Below, piece after piece: positions 4,780 to 27,341 of a stretch of DNA of 29,464 nt. The notes under the pieces are model-generated. The model worked only from the letters and a program-made list of their open reading frames with translations. It had not been told where the DNA came from and searched no databases. The position numbers and the translations under genes were made by a program. Source of the DNA: a virus; the IMG/VR virus record IMGVR_UViG_3300032213_001281, positions 1-29,464 of that record, one strand, 5' to 3'. Numbering within the stretch: the first letter of the stretch is position 1; every line of letters begins with the position of its first letter.

Positions 4780-5901
4780 ATGACTTTTTGCTATTCTCCT
4801 TGGACCAACGTTGATATCAGTCCTCAAGGCGACATCTCGCCTTGCTGTAAGTTTCGAATGGTCAAGTATGATCAGAAATTCAACATACAAACTGACGCAC
4901 TCAGTGACTATGTTGACAGTGCCTTTTTATCAGAAATTAAACAGGATTTTGTTCAAGGCAAATGGCCCCAAGGATGTGAACGCTGTCAGATAGAAGAACA
5001 AAATAAAATTGAAAGCAAGCGGCAATTGGATTATCAACGCTGGCAACAGTATTACGATCAATACCAACTGACTGACAATCAATTTATCACAGCAAGTATT
5101 GCATTTGGAAACACTTGCAATCTTAAATGTATCACATGTAATTCACACAGTAGCAGTCGCTGGCAGCAGGAATACAGAGAAATATATGATATTGATGTTG
5201 ACAATGTGCAGTTTTATCGTGACAACTTTGTTGCTAAGTTTATTGAGCAGGCCCCCAATGTAATACATTTAGATGTTCCCGGCGGAGAACCGTTCCTTAG
5301 CGGGGTGCCCGAACAGCAACAGTTATTAAAACACTATGTAGACTCCGGCCAAGCAAAAAATATTACTCTACATTACACTACCAATGCAACAGTATTTCCC
5401 GATTCAGCATGGTGGGAGTTATGGCAACATTTTAAAGAAGTTGACATGCAACTCAGCATCGATGGTATTGGCGCCAGATATGAATACATACGTTATCCTG
5501 GTAATTGGGATACTTTAGTTTCGAATGTATTGCAATACCTTACACATCAGTCTGACAGTTTTAGGTTAAGTGTAAGTCATACTGTCAGTGCGTATAACAT
5601 CTATTATCTTGACGAGTTTGTTTCTTGGTGCTATAATCAAGGACTACCAAGGCCATGGATGGGGCGTGTACATAATCCGCCACATATGAGACCAACTGTT
5701 TGGGAACCAATGGTTAAACAAAAAATTGTAAATTATTTAAGTAGTAGTTCTGATAAGGATGTACAAAACTGGGCCAAGTTACTTGAACAAAACGACGACA
5801 GTGATATGTTTGAGGAATTTTGTCTACGGTTGCACCAGCACGACCAATATAGAAACACAAATTTTGCCACAACGTTTCCAGAATTAGCACTGTACATATG
5901 A
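4780..5901 (+). CDS. Radical SAM protein with N-terminal Cys cluster (twitch/SPASM-like)
   Basis: A 373-residue radical SAM enzyme. Residues 110-121 read GNTCNLKCITCN, the CxxxCxxC (C113, C117, C120) that binds the SAM-cleaving 4Fe-4S cluster; GGEP at 168-171 is the SAM-binding motif, and MQLSIDGIG further on fits the core barrel. The N-terminus carries C4, C22-C23, C66 and C69 (CERC), likely ligands of an auxiliary Fe-S cluster, here placed before the core rather than after it as in most SPASM proteins. Substrate unknown. It is followed by an ATGA-coupled SGNH-like hydrolase and has a paralogue of the same layout at 17459-18484. Family call firm; reaction not inferable. Confidence 0.85.
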   Translation: MTFCYSPWTNVDISPQGDISPCCKFRMVKYDQKFNIQTDALSDYVDSAFLSEIKQDFVQGKWPQGCERCQIEEQNKIESKRQLDYQRWQQYYDQYQLTDNQFITASIAFGNTCNLKCITCNSHSSSRWQQEYREIYDIDVDNVQFYRDNFVAKFIEQAPNVIHLDVPGGEPFLSGVPEQQQLLKHYVDSGQAKNITLHYTTNATVFPDSAWWELWQHFKEVDMQLSIDGIGARYEYIRYPGNWDTLVSNVLQYLTHQSDSFRLSVSHTVSAYNIYYLDEFVSWCYNQGLPRPWMGRVHNPPHMRPTVWEPMVKQKIVNYLSSSSDKDVQNWAKLLEQNDDSDMFEEFCLRLHQHDQYRNTNFATTFPELALYI

Positions 5902-6689
5902 AAACATTAATAGTAGGATGCAGTTACGCAAACGGCCATGGATTAAATCTAGAAATAGATGATCCAATTTTGTGGGCAAACCAATTAATTGAACACATTG
6001 CTCCAGGCAGTCAAATATTCAACCTGTCGTGTTCGGGAAAAAATAATCATTGGATTTTCACAGAAGCATGCACTGCGCTGACTCGAGATGAATATGACAC
6101 TGTATTAGTTGCCTGGACTAATCAATCTCGTTTAAATTTTGAGATAGGGTTAGAAACTTATACTACTAGTACTATGCTCAATGATACCAATGTAAACATA
6201 AATCCAGGAATAACGGTGTCTGGTAAACACTTGTTGAGCATTGGCAATGAGTTAAGAAAATTACAAAATGACCATTGGACTCTACTAGACCTAGTCAAGT
6301 ACGTGAATATCTTATACGACGCACAGGTAAAACAGCGCGGCAAAACATTACTATGTGTAAATAGTCTTTTACATATTCCAAAAAATTATTTTGTTGAACA
6401 ACAATTTACGTTACCAGGTGAATTATCAGATTTTCATCAGATGATGTTTTCGGCTGATACTCGGGACGATCAAGAAGTAAAAGAATTATATAATCTTACC
6501 CATCAGAGCTACCGTTACTACGGGGGAATCAGGTCTGAGGTATGGCTTAATCTATATCAGTCGTTGCACTCAATGAAAGTAGATTGGGCATCGGATATAG
6601 ACCCTCATCCTGGCAAAGTTAGCCAGAACTCTTTTGCAAAATATCTGATAGATCAATATAATGAAACAAGCAACAATACAAATACGTGA
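5898..6689 (+). CDS. SGNH/GDSL-like hydrolase
   Basis: A 263-residue protein. Its N-terminus MKTLIVGCSYANGHGL matches SGNH block I, with S9 as the likely nucleophile; NLSCSGKNNHWI at 42-53 fits the block II Gly and block III Asn region; near the C-terminus DIDPHPGK (about 233-240) provides the D-x-x-x-H catalytic pair. SGNH enzymes of this type remove or transfer acyl groups (for example O-acetyl) on glycans. ATG overlaps the stop of the radical SAM gene as ATGA, so the two are coupled and may act on one substrate. The C-terminal 29 bases overlap the uvsW start. Its base composition is visibly AT-richer than uvsW. Confidence 0.65.
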   Translation: MKTLIVGCSYANGHGLNLEIDDPILWANQLIEHIAPGSQIFNLSCSGKNNHWIFTEACTALTRDEYDTVLVAWTNQSRLNFEIGLETYTTSTMLNDTNVNINPGITVSGKHLLSIGNELRKLQNDHWTLLDLVKYVNILYDAQVKQRGKTLLCVNSLLHIPKNYFVEQQFTLPGELSDFHQMMFSADTRDDQEVKELYNLTHQSYRYYGGIRSEVWLNLYQSLHSMKVDWASDIDPHPGKVSQNSFAKYLIDQYNETSNNTNT

Positions 6690-8121
6690 CGAGGTCAATA
6701 TCAAGATTGAAGGGCTTGAACTTGATGCTCGTCGTGCGCTAGTTAATGCATTTAAATATGATGTTCCGGGCGCACGTTATCTGCCGGCAGTTAGACTTGG
6801 CAGATGGGACGGTAAGGTCAGTTACTTTCAACTTGGTGGCAGTACCTATGTAAACTTGCTGCCTGAGATTATTCCTATACTAGAAAAGTTCAATTACGAT
6901 ATTGAACTAGACGACCAACGTGAGTATTCTACTGTGTTTGACTTTACACAGATCAAAGAGGATTCGTTTGCGCACAAGACGTGGCCAAAGACTCACCCAA
7001 TAGCAGGTGAGCCTGTGGTACTGCGTGACTACCAAGTTGAGATTATCAACAACTTCCTAGGCAACCCGCAATGCATACAAGAAGTGGCCACCGGCGCAGG
7101 CAAGACGTTGATCACCGCCGCACTGAGTTTAAGCATAGAATCTTATGGACGTAGCATTGTTATTGTGCCCAACAAGAGTTTGGTAACACAAACAGAAGCA
7201 GACTACAAGAACTTGGGTCTGGATGTGGGTGTTTACTTTGGTGACCGTAAAGAACATGGCCGGGCACATACAATTTGTACATGGCAAAGTTTAAATGTGT
7301 TAATGAAGAACACAAAGAACGGTGTAGCAGATGTTACTATCCAAGACTTCATTGAGGACGTGGTATGTGTAATCGTAGATGAAGTACACATGGCCAAGGC
7401 CGATGCACTTAAATCCTTGTTGACAGGCATCATGGCCAGAGTGCCGATTCGATGGGGTCTAACAGGAACTGTGCCTAAAGAGCCGTTTGAATTCCAAGCA
7501 CTAAAGTGTAGTCTTGGCCCTGTTATCAATCAACTCAGTGCAAGCGAATTGCAGGATCGTGGAGTGTTGGCGCAGTGTCATGTGAACATTGTGCAGTTGG
7601 TGGACCACGCAGAGTTCTCAAATTATCAAAGTGAGTTGAAGTTCTTGCTAGAAGAACCAGACAGACTCACTGCCATTGCCAACTTGGTGTCGCACGTTAA
7701 CGACACAGGCAATACACTTGTATTGGTGGACCGTGTAGCAGCCGGTCATGCTTTGATTGAACGCCTGGGCGATCGAGCAGTGTTTGTATCAGGTGCAACC
7801 AAAGCAAAGGATAGACAAGATGAGTATGATGAAGTTGCCACCAGCACTGGCAAGATTATTGTGGCGACTTACGGTGTGGCCGCTGTGGGTATTAATATTC
7901 CAAGGATTTTTAATTTGGTTCTTGTGGAGCCCGGAAAGAGCTTTGTCCGCGTTATACAATCAATTGGCCGCGGCATTAGAAAAGCGGAAGACAAAGACCA
8001 TGTCCAGATCTGGGATGTAACCAGCACTTGCAAATTTGCCAAGCGACACCTGACCAAACGCAAACAGTTTTACAAAGAAGCCAACTATCCATTTACACAA
8101 GAGAAACTGGAATGGAAATAG
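6661..8121 (+). CDS. uvsW: UvsW-like DNA/RNA helicase (SF2)
   Basis: A 486-residue superfamily 2 helicase, close to the length of T4 UvsW. Residues 1-100 correspond to the small N-terminal domain (RLGRWDGKVSYF). RecA-like domain 1 has VATGAGKT (142-149, Walker A) and DEVH (240-243, motif II), followed by GLTGT (motif III). Domain 2 has LVLVDRV and motif VI QSIGRGIR (433-440). UvsW unwinds branched recombination intermediates and R-loops and helps switch replication from origin-dependent to recombination-dependent modes. The start overlaps the SGNH gene by 29 bases; no separate promoter was seen. Motifs are intact. Confidence 0.93.
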   Translation: MKQATIQIRDEVNIKIEGLELDARRALVNAFKYDVPGARYLPAVRLGRWDGKVSYFQLGGSTYVNLLPEIIPILEKFNYDIELDDQREYSTVFDFTQIKEDSFAHKTWPKTHPIAGEPVVLRDYQVEIINNFLGNPQCIQEVATGAGKTLITAALSLSIESYGRSIVIVPNKSLVTQTEADYKNLGLDVGVYFGDRKEHGRAHTICTWQSLNVLMKNTKNGVADVTIQDFIEDVVCVIVDEVHMAKADALKSLLTGIMARVPIRWGLTGTVPKEPFEFQALKCSLGPVINQLSASELQDRGVLAQCHVNIVQLVDHAEFSNYQSELKFLLEEPDRLTAIANLVSHVNDTGNTLVLVDRVAAGHALIERLGDRAVFVSGATKAKDRQDEYDEVATSTGKIIVATYGVAAVGINIPRIFNLVLVEPGKSFVRVIQSIGRGIRKAEDKDHVQIWDVTSTCKFAKRHLTKRKQFYKEANYPFTQEKLEWK

Positions 8122-8122
8122 T

Positions 8123-8851
8123 ATGATCTATGTAAACGAATTAAATGCATATGATCCTAATCATTGGGCAGAATATTTTTTTAGCAACACACGTTATAAG
8201 CAGATATCCAAACATTACCAAAAGACTATTTTTACTTATAAAGAAATGACATTATTAAAAGCAGCGTTGCATGATACTGTGTATGAACAACCTAGACTTT
8301 TTTTAAAAAATTACAATATACTTGATGCGGTTCCATACTATTACATAAATTTTTTATTAGAAAAAACTCCAGGTACAATAGTTGACATAGGGTGTGGCGT
8401 TAATTATTTTAAACCACATTTTACAAATTTAATTGGAATTGATGCCGATCCAAAAGCAAATTTTGATATTTTTGATCATTTTGATAAAGATTTTGCAGAT
8501 AACCATCAGCACAGTTACGACGCATTAATTTCCATCAACACTATACATTTTGCATCTATAACTGCGATTACAGAACAATTACTATTGATTTCAAAATTAA
8601 TTAAACCCGGTGGTCGAGGATTTGTTTCTTTTAATTTTGAAACTTGGCTAATGCACACTAACCAAGATCAAATTAATATATTATTTGGCCAGTATCCAGC
8701 ATTTGATGATATTGTAAATTATACGAATGAACAAATTTTACAAACTAAATTAGATTTTATTGTAGTGGATTGGCCAGTATTGCATATTACCAATAATTCA
8801 ACTGTGCGTGATGATTTAAACGGTAATATACGGCTAGTGTTTAATGTATGA
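8123..8851 (+). CDS. Class I SAM-dependent methyltransferase-like protein
   Basis: A 242-residue protein with SAM-binding motif I TIVDIGCGVNYF (V87-G92) and an acidic loop LIGIDADPKANF after strand 2; a later segment, KPGGRGFVSFNFE, matches the post-motif strand of small-molecule methyltransferases. It starts 1 base after the uvsW stop and overlaps the next gene by ATGA. It is AT-richer than uvsW, with homopolymer A and T runs, suggesting separate acquisition as an accessory module. Substrate unknown; with its P-loop partner it probably decorates a glycan or lipid. Confidence 0.75.
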   Translation: MIYVNELNAYDPNHWAEYFFSNTRYKQISKHYQKTIFTYKEMTLLKAALHDTVYEQPRLFLKNYNILDAVPYYYINFLLEKTPGTIVDIGCGVNYFKPHFTNLIGIDADPKANFDIFDHFDKDFADNHQHSYDALISINTIHFASITAITEQLLLISKLIKPGGRGFVSFNFETWLMHTNQDQINILFGQYPAFDDIVNYTNEQILQTKLDFIVVDWPVLHITNNSTVRDDLNGNIRLVFNV

Positions 8852-9535: not shown

Positions 9536-10036
9536 ATGCGTATACTTACATTAGACAACCATCCATTTGATTTAGATCATCTTCCAGAAGAAGTAGATGA
9601 TATGCGTTTTGCTATTTTTGACAACAGCGATCCAAAGGATCCTGACTATCATTACATTCCGCTTATCTTTCTTGAAAGTTTTAACGCACCTGCGCTGGTA
9701 TTACAAATCGGCGATCACAAAATACGCATGCCCATGGACTGGCAGATACTGATCGGTGAACCCGAAGTGGGTGACTTGGAAGTACTACCATTGACCAGTA
9801 TCAATGATCGCGGATTTAAAGTATTCCAGTTCAATCCGTTGAGCAGTTTCCGACCAAGTTTCCCAACTGTTGAAATTGTAGACGTGTATCACGAAGTGGC
9901 TTGGTATGCTCCTAAACTAAAAAATGGTCAGATGTTGTGTATTCCCCTGAGTGATGATCCCAAGCCGGACTGTGTGTATTTTGTAAAAGACATCAGTCGT
10001 AACTGTGAGATTGTGGACTATCAAAAGGCCTGGTAA
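9536..10036 (+). CDS. Hypothetical phage protein (166 aa)
   Basis: A 166-residue protein of phage type that I cannot assign. It is acidic, beta-rich and Pro-rich: LDNHPFDLDHLPEEVDDM at the N-terminus, then KIRMPMDWQILIGEPE, FNPLSSFRPSFPTVE and PKPDCVYFVKDISR. There is no signal peptide or transmembrane segment. It heads the operon from the 9502 promoter, which also carries FkbM, clamp-loader-like, zinc-finger and DnaE-like genes, so a replication-related or regulatory role is possible but unproven. Its last base overlaps the next ATG (TAATG). Confidence 0.7.
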   Translation: MRILTLDNHPFDLDHLPEEVDDMRFAIFDNSDPKDPDYHYIPLIFLESFNAPALVLQIGDHKIRMPMDWQILIGEPEVGDLEVLPLTSINDRGFKVFQFNPLSSFRPSFPTVEIVDVYHEVAWYAPKLKNGQMLCIPLSDDPKPDCVYFVKDISRNCEIVDYQKAW

Positions 10037-10770
10037 TGTTAACACTACAACAGCAAAAAATTGAAGCAGAATTAACTGCCTCTTGGGCAGAGCAGATAGG
10101 GTGGCCCAGCAAAAACGTAGATTTTTTTAGGACAAATTATGAAATGTATCAAACGACAAATCAAATTAAATTTTATGAATTTGGACACTACCAAGAACTC
10201 GATGATGATGTTGTAAGTAATTTTTTTAGATTAAGAAAACGCAAAGGAAGATTTTTGTGCATAGGCGCGGCAAATGGAATAGACCAAACATATTCATTGT
10301 TGCGTAAAGGATGGTCGGCCGTATATTGCGAACCAGACCCGGTTGCATTATCGTCTATTGACGGACACGGATTATTAAAAGTTACAGAAAATTTTAGAGA
10401 CAATGCCATTATTGTCAATGCCGCCATTACCCCACTAAGTGGTATATGTGATTTTTATATTAATAATACAATAGCATTATCAACTACAAAAAAAGAATTG
10501 TCGGATAGTACGTCAATTCCTGTTATAATAAACACAATCGGATTTAATCAACTGTTGGATTATGTAGGCGAGGACTTTGACTATGTACAAATTGACTCAG
10601 AAGGTAACGATGTAGAGCTTATACAAAGTATTGATTGGGGTAAGAGATTGCCAAACTGCAAAATGATTTGCGTTGAGCTTGGCATAGGAGTATGGGCACA
10701 ACTGTTAGCGCAAGGGTATATAATGTCCGAGGTAACCGAACATAACATATACTTTACACGGATGGAATAA
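10036..10770 (+). CDS. FkbM-family methyltransferase
   Basis: A 244-residue protein matching FkbM methyltransferases: motif I FLCIGAANGIDQT at 73-85, acidic SAM-ribose ligand in YCEPDP (E99), a middle VNAAITPLSGICDFY, and the family signature FDYVQIDSEGNDVELI at 181-196. These enzymes O-methylate sugars or related hydroxyls. The gene is inserted within the clamp-loader/zinc-finger operon through a TAATG overlap and is AT-richer than those neighbours, consistent with a gained accessory gene. It probably methylates the same surface glycans as the other modification enzymes in the window; that link is inference. Confidence 0.8.
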   Translation: MLTLQQQKIEAELTASWAEQIGWPSKNVDFFRTNYEMYQTTNQIKFYEFGHYQELDDDVVSNFFRLRKRKGRFLCIGAANGIDQTYSLLRKGWSAVYCEPDPVALSSIDGHGLLKVTENFRDNAIIVNAAITPLSGICDFYINNTIALSTTKKELSDSTSIPVIINTIGFNQLLDYVGEDFDYVQIDSEGNDVELIQSIDWGKRLPNCKMICVELGIGVWAQLLAQGYIMSEVTEHNIYFTRME

Positions 10771-10772
10771 AG

Positions 10773-11222
10773 ATGAGTGACAAGTTAAACATTGCCAACG
10801 AAATGCGACAGTTTGATCGTAAGGATCGTAATTTTTATAAAGATTTAACAGACGAAGAACGTAAAAAGTTCAGCAACTATCTTATGATACGTTGGGGTAG
10901 CGCAGTTGAAGGATCTCGAGAGCTACAAGAGTTCTATCTCATTGCCACAAATGAACGTTTTAACAAACACTTCTTTACACTAAGCCGGCATCCAGAATTA
11001 CAATGGTTGTGTGCTACAACAGTAAGTCCAGACATGGGCACACCTCGACATACGTGGATTGCTCCTAAGAAAAAAGAACCTGGTGCTAGTGGTATACGCA
11101 AGCAGTTGGCAGAACTGTATCCACATCTTAAAGACGATGACATTGCAGTACTGGCATCGATCACTACTAAAAAAGAAATTGACGAGCACTTGAAGTTGTT
11201 GGGCCAAGAAACTAAAAAATGA
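10773..11222 (+). CDS. Probable clamp-loader small subunit (gp62-like)
   Basis: A 149-residue, mostly helical, highly charged protein: NEMRQFDRKDRNFYKDLTDEE, then YLMIRWGSAVEG, NERFNKHFFTLSRHPELQWL, HTWIAPKKKE and a C-terminal helix ending LKLLGQETKK. Size, pattern and replication context recall the phage clamp-loader A subunit family (T4 gp62), which with gp44 loads the sliding clamp at primer ends. The partner gp44 is not in the window. I rely on remembered family features, not an alignment, so the name is provisional. Its stop overlaps the next start (ATGA). Confidence 0.5.
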   Translation: MSDKLNIANEMRQFDRKDRNFYKDLTDEERKKFSNYLMIRWGSAVEGSRELQEFYLIATNERFNKHFFTLSRHPELQWLCATTVSPDMGTPRHTWIAPKKKEPGASGIRKQLAELYPHLKDDDIAVLASITTKKEIDEHLKLLGQETKK

Positions 11223-11893
11223 GCTACACCTGTCAGTACTGTCGGAAAGACTTTGTCAAGGAAACAAGCCTGACTGTGCATAGTTGTGAACCACGTCGTC
11301 GTAGACAAGAACGTTCCGAGCGTGGAGTAGAACTGGGCTTCCAAGCGTACATTAAATTTTACGAAATGACACAAGGCAGTGCCAAATTAAAAACATTTGA
11401 TGACTTTGCCGACTCACCATATTACCGAGCATTTGTAAAGTTTGGACGTTACTGTGTGAGCATACGTGCTATTAATCCTGCACGTTTTATGGAATGGGTT
11501 CTCAAACAAAACAAAAAGATTGATCACTGGTGTCGTGATGCAGTGTACACAGACTACTTGATATACTATCTGCAAGTAGAAAACATCAACGATGCACTAG
11601 CCCGTGCAATGGAATACAGTATTGACTGGGCAGAGAAAACAGGCAATCCTTCACAAGACTGTTTGCGATATGGTGGTACCAATGCCACTGTGTATGCAGT
11701 AACCACAGGACGTATTAGTCCTTGGGTAATATATAATAGTGAGTCTGGACAAGGGTTTTTGAGCACGTTAGATGCAACACAAATAGCAATGGTATGGCCA
11801 TATATTGATTCGGATGTATGGCAAAAGAAGTTTAGCGATTACTCTGCAGATCAAGAGTACGCTAAAGAAATATTAACGCAGGCAGGATGGTAA
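11219..11893 (+). CDS. Zinc-finger protein of unknown function (224 aa)
   Basis: The N-terminus contains a single finger-like C-x2-C-x12-H-x-C (C5, C8, H21, C23) followed by a basic stretch PRRRRQERSERG, a combination suited to nucleic-acid binding. The remaining 190 residues are helical and aromatic-rich (FMEWVLKQNKKIDHWCRDAVY, ALARAMEYSIDWAEK), with no known catalytic motif. It overlaps the clamp-loader-like gene by ATGA and is followed by the DnaE-like gene, so a role at the replication fork or in late-transcription coupling is plausible but unproven. Confidence 0.7.
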   Translation: MSYTCQYCRKDFVKETSLTVHSCEPRRRRQERSERGVELGFQAYIKFYEMTQGSAKLKTFDDFADSPYYRAFVKFGRYCVSIRAINPARFMEWVLKQNKKIDHWCRDAVYTDYLIYYLQVENINDALARAMEYSIDWAEKTGNPSQDCLRYGGTNATVYAVTTGRISPWVIYNSESGQGFLSTLDATQIAMVWPYIDSDVWQKKFSDYSADQEYAKEILTQAGW

Positions 11894-11894
11894 C

Positions 11895-12473
11895 ATGAGT
11901 GCAGATATTGACATAGATTTTGCAGACCGCAGTCAACTACTGGAATTAATACGACATACACCCGCACGACAAACAGTCCAAGGTCAAGTGCGTCGTCATA
12001 ACTCCGGTGTGTATGTAACAGACATTCCGGTGGATCCTGTGAATCTATGTGCGTCCATAGACTATGAAGAAGCAGAACAGTTGGGTTATTTTAAAATTGA
12101 CTTTTTAAACATGAGTGTTTACCAGTTGATTACTGGCCCAGAACACTATGCCACAGCAGTCACCACAGACCCAGAGTGGTCAAGACTATGGCAAGACCCA
12201 GACTGGGCTCGGCAGTTGGCACACATTGGCAACTACACTGATTTATTAAAAGATATGAAGCCGGATAGTATCCCACGTATGGCAGCGTTTATCAGTATTA
12301 TTCGCCCAGGTAAAGCACACTTACAACGACAGCCTTGGGATGTGGTGTTCGACTCTGTGTGGGATGGTGATGAAAGTCGGGGCTACACATTTAAGAAAAG
12401 CCACGCAATCTCTTACGCAGCCTTGGTAGCATTACATATGAACTTGCTCAGTCCATCCGCCGCACCAGCGTGA
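11895..12473 (+). CDS. Miniature DNA polymerase III alpha (DnaE)-like palm protein
   Basis: Only 192 residues, yet it retains, in order, the core motifs of bacterial PolIII alpha. ADIDIDFADR (3-12) matches PDFDVDF, with D6 and D8 as the catalytic pair. RRHNSGVYV (33-41) matches the KHAGGVVI block. ASIDYEEAEQLGYFKIDFL (53-71) matches the QFDK...VKFDFL block, giving the third Asp as D69. DLLKDMKPDSIPRMAAFISIIRPG (116-139) matches the DLIKRLQPD...RPG block. GYTFKKSHAISYAAL (163-177) matches GYGFNKSH. Comparison with E. coli DnaE is from memory. The PHP, thumb-insert, C-terminal clamp-binding and OB regions are absent. It may be a reduced polymerase, a regulator or a relic; its compact intact frame argues against decay. 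The 3' end overlaps the convergent gene by 26 bases. Confidence 0.7.
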   Translation: MSADIDIDFADRSQLLELIRHTPARQTVQGQVRRHNSGVYVTDIPVDPVNLCASIDYEEAEQLGYFKIDFLNMSVYQLITGPEHYATAVTTDPEWSRLWQDPDWARQLAHIGNYTDLLKDMKPDSIPRMAAFISIIRPGKAHLQRQPWDVVFDSVWDGDESRGYTFKKSHAISYAALVALHMNLLSPSAAPA

Positions 12474-12825
12474 TACTTTTTCGTTTGCCTTTTTTCAGTG
12501 CAATGTCAGCAAGACTGCACACAGGCCCGTGCAGTATTTCCAAGTCTTTGTTGGCAAATGTGCGCAGGCAAGGCTTGAATATTTCCCAGTCTTTTTTTAG
12601 GAAAATGTTGATAGGAATACTACGGTTACTTTCCCACCACCAAGTGTTGGCCAACTCCAAGAACCGTTGCTTTAGTGCAGGTTCGTGAATACCACCAAAG
12701 TCGTATATGGTAGTAACAGTGGCGTCTTGATTCTGTACAATCCCTACATACTCCGTAGAAGCATATACACACAGTGTAATAAAGGGATATTGGTCGCTTA
12801 GTTTAGTAAAGATATCATTGGCCAT
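12448..12825 (-). CDS. Hypothetical phage protein (125 aa)
   Basis: A 125-residue minus-strand protein: MANDIFTKLSDQYPFITLC, VGIVQNQDATVTTIYDFGG, ANTWWWESNRSIPINIFLKKDW and a basic C-terminus KKGKRKSITLVRRMD. It looks like a compact alpha/beta domain with no recognised active site. A late-type ATAAATA lies 6 bases before its ATG, and CCACC between them is no Shine-Dalgarno. It is divergent from the virion gene at 12894, sharing a bidirectional late promoter region, and is convergent with the DnaE-like gene. Confidence 0.7.
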   Translation of the reverse strand: MANDIFTKLSDQYPFITLCVYASTEYVGIVQNQDATVTTIYDFGGIHEPALKQRFLELANTWWWESNRSIPINIFLKKDWEIFKPCLRTFANKDLEILHGPVCSLADIALKKGKRKSITLVRRMD

Positions 12826-14014: not shown

Positions 14015-14043
14015 TTGCGTTGTTTCAAAAAACATGTTACAAT
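14015..14043 (+). promoter_or_regulatory. Sigma70-like promoter abutting the primase start
   Basis: TTGCGT (14015-14020), 17-base spacer, TACAAT (14038-14043) with extended -10 TGT. The primase ATG at 14050 begins 6 bases later, predicting a leaderless message. Confidence 0.6.
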
Positions 14044-14049
14044 AGTAGC

Positions 14050-15018
14050 ATGATTGACGTGTTAGCATTTTTACCAGGCAAAAGAAAACAGTCTGGTTCT
14101 GGATGGATTTCCTTTAACGCACCTTGTTGCGTTCACAATGGTAACACACCGGACAAGCGTGGACGTGGTGGCATCAAACTATCAGATCAAGGCTGGAGCT
14201 ATCATTGCTTTAACTGCGGCTATACTGCAAGTTTTATCCTGGGCCGTAACATTGGATTCAAAGCACGACGCTTGCTTGAATGGATAGGTGTTCCTGAGAA
14301 CGACATTAATCAAATCAATCTTGAAAGTATGCGCCATCGCAACATGGAAGGCATGATAGAAGATCGTCAGCGTGTTTGGAATAACTTAGCACCGATTGAA
14401 TTTACGGAAACAGAGTTGCCCGACTTCGTAGATTTTGTAACACCAGACCGATCAGAGCATTGGGCATATCTTAGGAGCAGACATGTGCCCGAAGACTATC
14501 CCGTCATGGTAGCTGCCACAACGCGAGCAGGTGTAGTTGTGCCGTTTACATACAACAATCAAGTGGTAGGCAGTACAATACGTTTCCTAGACGATCGCAA
14601 TCCACGTTACATTAACGACATGCCTAAGGGCTATGTGTTTGGTATAGATCTACAGCAAGCAGGCTGGCAACATGTGATTGTTACAGAAGGTATCTTTGAT
14701 GCACTCTGTATCAATGGACTGGCTGTGATGCACAACGAAATAAGTGATGATCAAGCAAGACTAATACGCAGTCTAGGACGCAATGTCGTTGTAGTTCCAG
14801 ACCAGGATCAAGCAGGTGTAGAGTTAATTGACCGTGCTGTAGAACTGGGATGGAGTGTAAGCGTTCCCACCTGGCCAGAGGGTGTTAAGGATATCAACGA
14901 TGCTGTGAAACTCTGGGGCAAGTTAACAACTTTGCTAACTATAATGCAATCGAGCGAGAGCAGTAAAATTAAAATAGAACTAAGGAAGAAACAACTTGTT
15001 AAAAGATTACGGACTTGA
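14050..15018 (+). CDS. DNA primase (gp61-like, zinc ribbon plus Toprim)
   Basis: A 322-residue primase, near the size of T4 gp61. The N-terminal zinc ribbon has APCCVH (C26/C27, H29) and FNCG with C53 and C56. The Toprim domain has VTEGIFD (E213) and PDQDQAG (D251, D253), the metal-binding residues for RNA primer synthesis, then GVKDINDAV. The start at ATG 14050 is chosen because a promoter lies at 14015-14043; the frame is open upstream to 14020 but that would lie inside the promoter. The 3' end overlaps the helicase gene by 23 bases; together they would form the phage primosome. Confidence 0.88.
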   Translation: MIDVLAFLPGKRKQSGSGWISFNAPCCVHNGNTPDKRGRGGIKLSDQGWSYHCFNCGYTASFILGRNIGFKARRLLEWIGVPENDINQINLESMRHRNMEGMIEDRQRVWNNLAPIEFTETELPDFVDFVTPDRSEHWAYLRSRHVPEDYPVMVAATTRAGVVVPFTYNNQVVGSTIRFLDDRNPRYINDMPKGYVFGIDLQQAGWQHVIVTEGIFDALCINGLAVMHNEISDDQARLIRSLGRNVVVVPDQDQAGVELIDRAVELGWSVSVPTWPEGVKDINDAVKLWGKLTTLLTIMQSSESSKIKIELRKKQLVKRLRT

Positions 15019-16435
15019 AGTCCAACGATTATTCTTAGAAATGATGTTAGAAGACGCAAGTAGTTATGTGCGTGTTCAAAATATCTACAATCCGCAAAAC
15101 TTTGACAAGAGTCTGCGTCCTGCAGCCGAGTTCATTAAAGAACATAGTGACAAGCATAAAACTATGCCTGACAGGACGCAGATCAGTGCAACCACAGGAA
15201 TCAAACTACAGGCCGTGCCCGACTTAAATGACGGACACTTTGATTGGTTCATGACCGAGTTCGAAGGCTTTACCAAGCGTCAAGAACTTGAACGTGCTAT
15301 TTTAAAGTCGGCAGACTTGCTCGAGAAGGGTGAGTTTGAGCCAGTTGAGAAACTGATCAAAGATGCAGTACAGATATCACTCACTAAAGACATGGGCACA
15401 GATTATTTTGCTGATCCGGGCGCTCGTATTAACAAGTATTTTAACTCAGGTGGGCAAGTAAGTACAGGCTGGCCACAGTTGGACAAGTTGTTGTATGGTG
15501 GATTTAGCCGCGGTGAACTAAACATCTTTGCAGGTGGATCCGGATCTGGTAAGTCGTTGGTTATGATGAACATTGCCCTTAACTGGTTGCAACAAGGACT
15601 ATCTGGCGTGTATATTACACTAGAACTCAGTGAAGAACTTACCAGTTTGCGTACAGATGCCATGTTGACCAACATGAGCACTAAAGATATCCGCAAGGAC
15701 ATTGACACCACAGAACTCAAAGTTAAACTGGTTGCTAAAAAATCTGGACAGTATCGTGTCAAAGCATTGCCAGCGCAAAGCAACATCAATGACATCCGCA
15801 GTTACATTAAAGAAGTACAGATCCAAACAAGCATTAAAGTAGACTTCCTGATGATTGACTACCTGGACTTGTTAATGCCAGTGAGTGCTAAAGTTAGTCC
15901 CAACGACTTGTTTGTCAAGGACAAGTATGTTTCAGAAGAACTGCGTAACTTGGCCAAGGAACTTGGCGTGTTAATGGTTACTGCTTCGCAGTTGAATCGT
16001 AGTGCTGTGGAAGAAATTGAATTTGACCACTCACACATTTCTGGTGGTATCAGTAAAATTAACACGGCAGATAATGTGTTCGGTATCTTTACTAGTCGTG
16101 CTATGAAAGAGCGTGGCAAGTATCAGATACAATGTATGAAATCTCGAAGCTCGACCGGCGTTGGTCAAAAAATTGATTTGGAGTATAACATTGAAACTAT
16201 GCGCATTACTGATGAAGGCGGGGACGAAGGAACAGGGTACAACCGACCCCAAAGTTCACTTATGGACTCAATCAAAGCAAAAAGTCAACTCAAGCCTGCT
16301 AACACCGCAGAAGACAAATCGCCGCCATGGGAAAAAGCCACAGGAACTCCTGCTTGGGAACAGCCAGCCAAAGTAACTGGAGATGTGCAAAGTGCTAAAT
16401 TAAAACAATTGCTTGGACAAATTAAGCAGTCATGA
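14996..16435 (+). CDS. Replicative DNA helicase (gp41/DnaB-like)
   Basis: A 479-residue DnaB-type (SF4) helicase matching T4 gp41. The N-terminal helical domain (1-150) includes LRPAAEFIKEH; the RecA core has GGFSRGELNIFAGGSGSGKS with Walker A at 180-187, LELSEE (H1a-like Glu), Walker B FLMIDYLDLL with D288, and TASQLNRS as the H3 element. The C-terminal tail (about 405-479) is Pro/Lys/Gln-rich and probably flexible. The start is TTG 14996, with AAGGA at 14982-14986. It should unwind DNA ahead of the fork with the upstream primase. Its stop overlaps the next ATG (ATGA). Confidence 0.9.
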   Translation: MLKDYGLEVQRLFLEMMLEDASSYVRVQNIYNPQNFDKSLRPAAEFIKEHSDKHKTMPDRTQISATTGIKLQAVPDLNDGHFDWFMTEFEGFTKRQELERAILKSADLLEKGEFEPVEKLIKDAVQISLTKDMGTDYFADPGARINKYFNSGGQVSTGWPQLDKLLYGGFSRGELNIFAGGSGSGKSLVMMNIALNWLQQGLSGVYITLELSEELTSLRTDAMLTNMSTKDIRKDIDTTELKVKLVAKKSGQYRVKALPAQSNINDIRSYIKEVQIQTSIKVDFLMIDYLDLLMPVSAKVSPNDLFVKDKYVSEELRNLAKELGVLMVTASQLNRSAVEEIEFDHSHISGGISKINTADNVFGIFTSRAMKERGKYQIQCMKSRSSTGVGQKIDLEYNIETMRITDEGGDEGTGYNRPQSSLMDSIKAKSQLKPANTAEDKSPPWEKATGTPAWEQPAKVTGDVQSAKLKQLLGQIKQS

Positions 16436-16920: not shown

Positions 16921-17462
16921 TATCTGGATATAGTACAGACCTTGGCACAATACGTCTGATTCAACAAGTTAGATTATATCAGTTGGCACGGCCAGCAGTT
17001 AAAAAATGGCGAGCAATTCGTCGTGGAATTCCATACCGAATGGATGCAACAGATCAGTGGATCCTGAATAATTTACAAGACACTAAATTGGTAGCGGTTG
17101 ATTTTGCAGGATGGTATTTTCAAGAATTTAACATCAAAACAACTTGTTTAGAAAGTGAATTGTTGTCTAAAAGATATTTTCCGGAGTGTTATGTGGAGCC
17201 CGACATCTTCACACACAGGCCAACATATATTCCTGACAACGAAATGGTAGTTTTTAAATATCCTTGGTTTTTAAAATATGCTACCTTGGACCAGTTTGTG
17301 AATTTTTTAAACATCTGGGTAAAATCAAATACGGTGTTAAACTTTAATCCCATTTTGATACAGCATAATCATTTAAAATTTTCCTTAGAGACGCTGGTAA
17401 AGCGCCGTGTCAACTTAAATATACAAAAGATCAACGCACAATTATGGGTAGCTTCTCCATGA
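16911..17462 (+). CDS. Unknown protein, AT-rich cassette (183 aa)
   Basis: The start at ATG 16911 is preferred over an in-frame TTG at 16899; it overlaps the previous stop by 10 bases. The 183-residue product begins MQIVSGYSTDLGTIRLIQQ and includes a basic LARPAVKKWRAIRRGIPYR, then LVAVDFAGWYFQEFNI and VVFKYPWFLKYATLDQF. No family recognised; strand-helix alternation suggests a small alpha/beta domain. It is joined to the following radical SAM gene by ATGA, so the two are probably functional partners. Confidence 0.65.
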   Translation: MQIVSGYSTDLGTIRLIQQVRLYQLARPAVKKWRAIRRGIPYRMDATDQWILNNLQDTKLVAVDFAGWYFQEFNIKTTCLESELLSKRYFPECYVEPDIFTHRPTYIPDNEMVVFKYPWFLKYATLDQFVNFLNIWVKSNTVLNFNPILIQHNHLKFSLETLVKRRVNLNIQKINAQLWVASP

Positions 17463-18484
17463 CTAAGTGTGTATTAATAAAACACGGGTTAACATTTAAT
17501 TCTAGCAACAACTATGGTACTTGTTGTTATAATCCAACAAATCCTTTGAAATACACGTCCAACAACATTGATCCGGTAGGCTGTCGCGCCTGCATAGATC
17601 AAGAAGCCAATGGTATATTTTCTTACCGCCAAGGCGCCAATCAAAAATATGGACTAGAACATGACCATCAGTTACCCATAGTCTTAGATGTAATACCTAA
17701 TAAAAATTGTGATCTAGCTTGCAAAATATGCAATCCGGCATCTAGCTCAACCTGGGCAAAACTTAGTAATATTAAAATTGACTCAACGTATAATGTTAAT
17801 TTATTAGATTTTAAAAATGCATTTAATCATGTTGATTTATCTCAAGTTCAAGAAATTAATTTTTCCGGTGGCGAACCATTTTTAAACAATAATATACAAA
17901 GATACATAAACCAATTGTCAGACCGCGTTGATTTTTCTAAAATAACTTTACGTTTCAGTACAAACGGATCACATCAATTAAATGCAAAACTAACAAATTT
18001 CTTCTTACAGTTTGCACTGGTACAAGCTCGATTTAGTCTAGATGATATTAACGAAGGACACGAGTATCAACGTTGGCCATCAAAATGGCCGCAATGGGAA
18101 GCCAACTGGAAACTGTTCTTAGAACGTATGCCACATAATACAATGCCCAGCATCAATCGCACAATTAGTCTGCTTAATATTAATCGTCTACATCTATTAG
18201 ATAATTGGCACCAACAATACCAAACTAATAAATTTGGCGATCCCATAGAACTAATAGATCACTATGCGTTTGGATCATATAGTCTCAACAACTTACCCGC
18301 TGCCTTAAAAGAATATATTAGCAAAAATCGTGACATTCATGCTCGGGCATGGGGTGCTGTTAAAAATAGGCCAGCAACTACAAATATTATTAACCTTAGA
18401 CAAACAATCATAGAACACGATCAACTGCACAAAACGTCGATGAACGAATTTAACCCTGATTTATATAACATTATATTTTTATGA
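17459..18484 (+). CDS. Radical SAM protein with N-terminal Cys cluster, second copy
   Basis: From ATG 17459 (ATGA with the previous stop; an in-frame ATG at 17444 is the alternative) the protein has 341 residues. The core motif is KNCDLACKICNP (CxxxCxxC), followed by NFSGGEPFLNN (GGEP) and RFSTNGS. The N-terminus has C4, TCCYNP and GCRACID, the same cysteine layout (C, CC, CxxC) as the radical SAM protein at 4780-5901, so the two are paralogues with an auxiliary Fe-S site before the core. It lies between two unknown genes and a P-loop protein in a fully coupled AT-rich cassette. Substrate unknown. Confidence 0.82.
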   Translation: MTKCVLIKHGLTFNSSNNYGTCCYNPTNPLKYTSNNIDPVGCRACIDQEANGIFSYRQGANQKYGLEHDHQLPIVLDVIPNKNCDLACKICNPASSSTWAKLSNIKIDSTYNVNLLDFKNAFNHVDLSQVQEINFSGGEPFLNNNIQRYINQLSDRVDFSKITLRFSTNGSHQLNAKLTNFFLQFALVQARFSLDDINEGHEYQRWPSKWPQWEANWKLFLERMPHNTMPSINRTISLLNINRLHLLDNWHQQYQTNKFGDPIELIDHYAFGSYSLNNLPAALKEYISKNRDIHARAWGAVKNRPATTNIINLRQTIIEHDQLHKTSMNEFNPDLYNIIFL

Positions 18485-26447: not shown

Positions 26448-27341
26448 ATGACACAAAGAATCTTGATTGACAAGTTAGAATTCTACATCACCAACGTGTG
26501 TAATTTAACCTGTGACGGTTGTAATCGCTACAACAACTACAAATTCAGCGGCTGGCAAAGTTGGGACGAAGCTGAACCCATTCTCACCCGCTGGGCAGAA
26601 AAAATAGACATACGACATCCTGTGATACTCGGAGGCGAGCCCTTGCTTAACCCAGACATTGTCAAGTGGATCAAAGGCGTTAATAAACTATGGCCCGACC
26701 ACTCGGGTACACAGGTACAAAGCAATGGTACTAGAATTGACTGTGTTAAGGGACTTGAAGAAGCACTTGATCCTAGTGCAGGAAATTGGTTAGGCATCAG
26801 CATACACAACCCAGATGATCGAGAAGAGATATTTGCCCGTGTGCGTAATTTTCTAGGTCCAACCGTAATTGCAACTCAACGCAAAGATGATCCAATTGGC
26901 AGTGACTATCAATTTATTAATAGTAATAAAATACAAATTCATGCATGGATGAGCAACAAGTTTGTGCAGAGTAACATCATCGAACGACTAGACGGCAAGT
27001 ACACACTGTATCAAAGTGATCCAGCACGGGCACACGAAAACTGCACCTTCCGCAGATTTAAAAACTATCACATGATCAATGGTAAGATTTACAAGTGCGG
27101 ACCGGCTGCATTAATGCCCGAATTTGATGATCAATACCATTTTGAAATAAGTGACGAAGATCGCGCTATTCTACACAGTTATAAACCGTTGACCATTGAT
27201 GAGTTCGATATGCGTGGCAAAGAGTTCATTGACACAATTGACAATCAAATTGATCAATGTAAGTTTTGTCCTGAGGACTATGAATACAAACCAATTACCT
27301 TTAGCGATCGTAAAAAGCCCTGGATTAAAGAGCCAAAATGA
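26448..27341 (+). CDS. Radical SAM protein, third type
   Basis: A 297-residue radical SAM protein. ITNVCNLTCDGCNR gives CxxxCxxC (C18, C22, C25), and ILGGEPLLNPD at 61-71 is the GGEP motif. Later Cys residues sit at ENCTFRRF, KIYKCGPA and QCKFCPEDYEY, a C-terminal SPASM/twitch-like arrangement that probably holds an auxiliary cluster. Unlike the other two radical SAM proteins here, its extra cysteines follow the core, so it belongs to a separate lineage. It starts right after a TAAATA motif and precedes the exported His-rich protein, cold-shock, IscU and IscA genes. Substrate unknown. Confidence 0.85.
   Translation: MTQRILIDKLEFYITNVCNLTCDGCNRYNNYKFSGWQSWDEAEPILTRWAEKIDIRHPVILGGEPLLNPDIVKWIKGVNKLWPDHSGTQVQSNGTRIDCVKGLEEALDPSAGNWLGISIHNPDDREEIFARVRNFLGPTVIATQRKDDPIGSDYQFINSNKIQIHAWMSNKFVQSNIIERLDGKYTLYQSDPARAHENCTFRRFKNYHMINGKIYKCGPAALMPEFDDQYHFEISDEDRAILHSYKPLTIDEFDMRGKEFIDTIDNQIDQCKFCPEDYEYKPITFSDRKKPWIKEPK

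Follow-up and report, generated by a model that had tools for sequence, protein, structure and literature searches.

A split, minimal Pol III alpha: the C-terminal half encoded in a genome fragment of an uncultured phage

The open reading frame and its homology to Pol III alpha

The stretch considered here, hereafter the window, is viral DNA of 29,464 nucleotides (IMG/VR record IMGVR_UViG_3300032213_001281, positions 1 to 29,464). The feature under study is an open reading frame (ORF) on the plus strand that starts with ATG and runs uninterrupted for 192 residues (Table 1). An original prediction made from the sequence had read this intact ORF as a miniature polymerase that keeps five conserved blocks of Pol III alpha (DnaE), and all five are present in the correct order. 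In a single-sequence search the ORF matches phrog_11778, a family labeled "DNA polymerase" (E 4.3e-53), and the long DnaE family phrog_405 is also matched (E 8.4e-8). The corresponding Pfam search returns only PF17657 (E 0.17), and the sole PDB match, a cystatin, was judged spurious. Because these single-sequence searches are weak, profiles were needed. A profile of 61 homologues compared with the PDB places M. tuberculosis Pol III alpha first (E 7.6e-4), and the remaining matches are mainly further Pol III alpha chains. The same relationship is apparent from the AlphaFold2 model (57 sequences; mean predicted local distance difference test score, pLDDT, 93.0; pTM 0.82): in a Foldseek comparison with the PDB, ranks 1-13 are all Pol III alpha, with E-values from 2.7e-4 (best match, TMq 0.52) to 0.036, and nothing credible was found beyond rank 13.

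The catalytic aspartates of E. coli DnaE are D401, D403 and D555. In that protein the motifs DFDVDF, KFDFL, LFRPG and FNKSH start at residues 401, 553, 637 and 756, and their counterparts in the ORF, DIDIDF, KIDFL, IIRPG and FKKSH, start at residues 4, 67, 135 and 166; the catalytic aspartates of the ORF are therefore D4, D6 and D69. The trio first proposed, D6, D8 and D69, consists of residues that are all present and invariant, and is shifted by one aspartate without consequence. Across 198 distinct homologues the invariant columns include D4, D6, D8, K67, D69, R137, F166, H170 and Y174. Both the palm aspartates and the fingers motifs thus lie in one protein of about 190 residues with DxDxDF at its start. 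The order and identity of the catalytic motifs match bacterial DnaE (E. coli; Taq, 2HPI/3E0D; M. tuberculosis, 5LEW), and the palm and a portion of the fingers are folded alike.

The homologues that the original prediction proposed to seek in other phages do exist, with the aspartates conserved. Relatives were found by tblastn in 90 phage records, with 37-45% identity among the 60 listed; these are chiefly Rak2-like coliphages and their relatives, PA5oct-like Pseudomonas phages, Atu_ph07 and Phosso. At least 571 related loci occur in IMG/VR, the closest among the matches listed having 89% identity, and five aligned proteins of named phages are 36-44% identical to the ORF. The pN/pS ratio is 0.15-0.16 against six close relatives, and this low value, together with the invariance of the catalytic residues, rules out a chance ORF or a decayed host dnaE. 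A cellular origin was likewise rejected: at least four matches were obtained in 84,980 bacterial and archaeal genomes, two of them weak and two in possibly viral contigs of metagenome-assembled genomes. The ORF is real and homologous to Pol III alpha.

Full bacterial DnaE is a single chain that comprises PHP, a complete palm, thumb and fingers as well as HHH/OB and tau regions, whereas the phage enzyme is encoded in two genes, and the ORF has about one sixth of the bacterial length. PHP is absent, little thumb remains, the segment with YQEQVM and RRAMGKK is missing, and there are no HHH, OB or tau parts. The PF14579 profile (HHH_6 of DnaE) matched none of nine relatives, while control profiles matched. 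The collapse of the distances between blocks and the loss of the PHP, clamp- and tau-binding parts, both anticipated by the original prediction, are borne out: the D401-D555 spacing falls from 154 residues in E. coli to 65 in the ORF, and the R639-H760 spacing from 121 to 33. Thumb and fingers are mostly missing from the split polymerase.

These losses bear on one of the roles first offered, a decoy of the host polymerase, and on the related idea that the protein inhibits the Pol III holoenzyme of the host. Although homology to the host polymerase core would suit such a role, we consider it highly improbable, because the domains for binding host epsilon, clamp and tau are absent and the catalytic aspartates, needless for a decoy, are invariant in 198 sequences. 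The C terminus also carries no conserved clamp-like motif; a clamp-binding motif at this end, a search prompted by the Paride tail DPFKLFS, was found in 0 of 237 sequences by the pattern used.

The separately encoded N-terminal half

In E. coli DnaE the palm opens with the GRGS nucleotide-binding part (residues 359-393), followed by DFDVDF. The ORF begins only three residues ahead of DxDxDF and is devoid of the GRGS part, which forms a separate gene of about 175 residues, with a PF07733 match in Phosso, Paride and RaK2. Within this N half the G-x-G-R-G-S motif is invariant (80 sequences), and its profile, compared with the PDB, aligns with residues 321-393 of the E. coli protein and 382-455 of the Taq protein, with the end at RFLN. 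As the N half ends near E. coli residue 393 and the C half resumes at 401, the two pieces abut without overlap, with about seven linker residues missing. The AlphaFold2 model of the N half has a pLDDT of 87.7; its fold matches are mostly Pol III alpha, which is also top-ranked, with probability up to 1.00.

Both halves are present in 22 of 22 large genomes checked, namely all 7 named phages and all 15 contigs (G001, nine found by way of the N half and five by way of the C half, each of at least 266 kb). One half is absent only in contigs of up to 262 kb, which may be fragments. Where computed, the N half lies 34-224 kb from the C half, and about 15 kb in XacN1; none of the 237 C-half ORFs and none of the 87 N-half ORFs is a fused form. 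Since the ORF begins at DxDxDF, without the GRGS part held by a separate gene, it is the C-terminal half of a polymerase and does not stand alone.

The original prediction of a stand-alone minimal polymerase is therefore not retained. That the 192-residue protein by itself is the enzyme would agree with the confident fold predicted for the C half on its own, yet it is very hard to reconcile with a GRGS palm part that is wholly missing and that every one of the 22 large genomes encodes as a separate gene, the chain being interrupted between E. coli residues 393 and 401; we give this possibility hardly any weight.

At the N-half loci L091, L092, L004-L006, L089 and L090, two genes come after the N half in every case, one for a protein of about 110-190 residues of unknown function and one for a protein of about 105-130 residues that is GroES-like by eye (gp31-type).

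Gene neighborhood and proposed function

The C half resides in a conserved cluster with consistent strands: the UvsW helicase comes first, small genes lie between it and the C half, and the convergent small gene, primase and DnaB follow (Table 1). The frequencies given for the neighbors refer to 238 loci, several of which end early, with some contigs counted twice. The convergent small gene gave no Pfam match. The window additionally encodes three radical SAM proteins, one of them with a SPASM domain, and two methyltransferases close to the radical SAM genes.

Table 1. Features of the window, with the share of the 238 loci that carry each neighboring gene
Feature	Positions	Strand	Remarks
C-terminal subunit of split minimal Pol III alpha (metal-binding palm and reduced fingers)	11895-12473	+	phrog_11778 family
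DIDID motif	11904-11918	+	D4, D6 = E. coli DnaE D401, D403; D8 = D405; invariant in 198 sequences
KIDFL motif	12093-12107	+	D69 = E. coli D555, K67 = K553; both invariant
IIRPG motif, residues 135-139, fingers	12297-12311	+	E. coli LFRPG 637-641; alignment, profile
FKKSH motif, residues 166-170	12390-12404	+	E. coli FNKSH 756-760; alignment
Upstream neighbor, unknown function, phrog_11058	11219-11893	+	227/238; stops 1 base ahead of the ORF ATG
Convergent small gene, unknown function, overlapping the ORF 3' end	12448-12825	-	231/238; always on the opposite strand
DnaG-type primase (T4 gp61-like), downstream	14020-15018	+	188/238
DnaB-like replicative helicase (T4 gp41-like)	14996-16435	+	151/238
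UvsW-like DNA helicase, upstream in the same cluster	6661-8121	+	169/238
Radical SAM protein	4780-5901		
Radical SAM protein	17444-18484		
Radical SAM protein	26448-27341		
FkbM-type methyltransferase	10036-10770		
Methyltransferase	8123-8851		

A family B polymerase (PF00136) is encoded in 7 of 7 large relatives tested (W01-W05, G001 and G002), in agreement with the original expectation for this phage group. The relatives tested have a family B polymerase without full DnaE, to which contig G009 (337 kb) adds a single-chain DnaE of 557 residues. This protein (L330:730-2403, minus strand) lacks PHP, contains palm, thumb and fingers, and adjoins a rubrerythrin-like gene; both split halves are located on the same contig.

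From the computed homology, fold, catalytic invariance, co-occurrence, split position and gene cluster, we infer physical assembly, polymerase activity and a role for the two proteins. It is probable that, in T4-like jumbo phages, they constitute a minimal nucleotidyltransferase of family C (Pol III alpha) that is encoded by two genes and whose halves assemble in trans as an accessory polymerase. The C half would bring the three metal-binding aspartates of the palm and the shortened fingers, while the partner of about 175 residues would supply the GRGS loop that grips the triphosphate of the incoming nucleotide. Joined in trans, the two would restore a single palm and form a polymerase core of about 365 residues that has lost PHP, most of the thumb, and the domains for binding clamp or tau. 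Such a pair could transfer nucleotides alongside the family B replicase, to extend primers, to fill gaps, or to take part in recombination-dependent replication or recombination-repair. Given the position of the gene in the UvsW-primase-DnaB cluster and the family B replicase that these phages have as well, the enzyme most likely serves replication or recombination-repair as an accessory polymerase.

Several observations weigh against this interpretation. The search found no N half within the window, and the separate, distant GRGS half common to all 22 large relatives is thus not seen in the window's own genome; neither the N half nor the family B polymerase is seen there because the window is a 29-kb fragment, and both are seen in relatives of the window at 73-78% identity. 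The fold matches of the N half are weak in E-value, 0.1 at best. Furthermore, the fingers segment with YQEQVM (686) and RRAMGKK (709), E. coli 686-715, is absent from the ORF, and no third gene with the lost fingers exceeded the cut-off except the single-chain DnaE of G009. With this segment absent and no separate gene found for it, templated polymerization by the pair is not assured.

Because of this loss of fingers and thumb, the halves might instead assemble into a repurposed family C nucleotidyltransferase that carries out non-templated transfer, for instance by adding nucleotides to ends or by nucleotidylating some other substrate. The metal- and triphosphate-binding residues are invariant even though fingers and thumb are largely gone, and genome copying is already covered by the family B replicase, both of which suit such an activity. 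However, RPx and FKKxH in the fingers show the same invariance as the aspartates, and the gene remains in the replication cluster, so that we regard this alternative as unlikely. Still less likely is a subunit with a structural or regulatory task, in which the fold is preserved but catalysis is not used: the severe truncation and the presence of the phage family B polymerase would be compatible with it, but the catalytic set is fully invariant in both halves.

Relation to known systems and significance

For jumbo phages of group 2.2, Iyer et al. 2021 (PMC7824862) described a "minimal, split Pol III alpha" computationally and predicted a heterodimer with polymerase activity. A 172-residue 'truncated' Pol III alpha, which corresponds to the N half, was noted in the CBB genome paper of 2017 (PMC5259590). 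The original statement that no form this small had been described therefore does not hold, and the ORF of the window adds one member to the known split Pol III alpha family and is not new in kind, since Iyer et al. 2021 described the same minimal split protein. As in the group 2.2 phages, it goes together with DnaB, a DnaG-type primase and UvsW, in its relatives also with a family B polymerase, and with no other Pol III domains; there is no essential difference, and the window represents an uncultured member. Text searches of open papers found no experimental test of split Pol III alpha. The present analysis contributes the co-occurrence numbers, the residue invariance, the structural check, the precise split point, and the finding of the same split point in the full-length DnaE of Cbastvirus.

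In Cbastvirus (phi13:1, Larrie) the break falls at the same position as in the minimal form, between FLN and PDIDxDF. Unlike the minimal split form, the two Cbastvirus genes are adjacent and the polymerase is full-length, with PHP, fingers and HHH. In Tenacibaculum phage Larrie (L340:2146-5726) and Cellulophaga phage phi13:1 (L345:1103-4703), DnaE is split FLNSGR / ..PDIDxDF, with the PF07733 break at 98/100. The first piece bears a conserved tail of about 50 residues and the second a head of about 18, which by eye resemble a split-intein remnant; the same tail of about 50 residues occurs in phiST and phi19:2. A search for an intein in this tail gave no Pfam or NCBIfam match.

More tentatively, the two distant proteins of about 175 and 190 residues could be the smallest working family C DNA polymerase, serving as a dedicated second polymerase, for instance in extending primers, within a replisome otherwise driven by a family B enzyme, with the break a recurrent weak point in DnaE, shared with Cbastvirus phages, and perhaps the scar of a lost intein; we view this fuller proposal as quite possible, somewhat short of probable. 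As these are small proteins with good fold predictions that can readily be produced, the question of activity is directly testable. If the pair is an active polymerase, it would delimit the smallest catalytic core in the bacterial replicase family, in phages equipped with DNA polymerases of two unrelated kinds.
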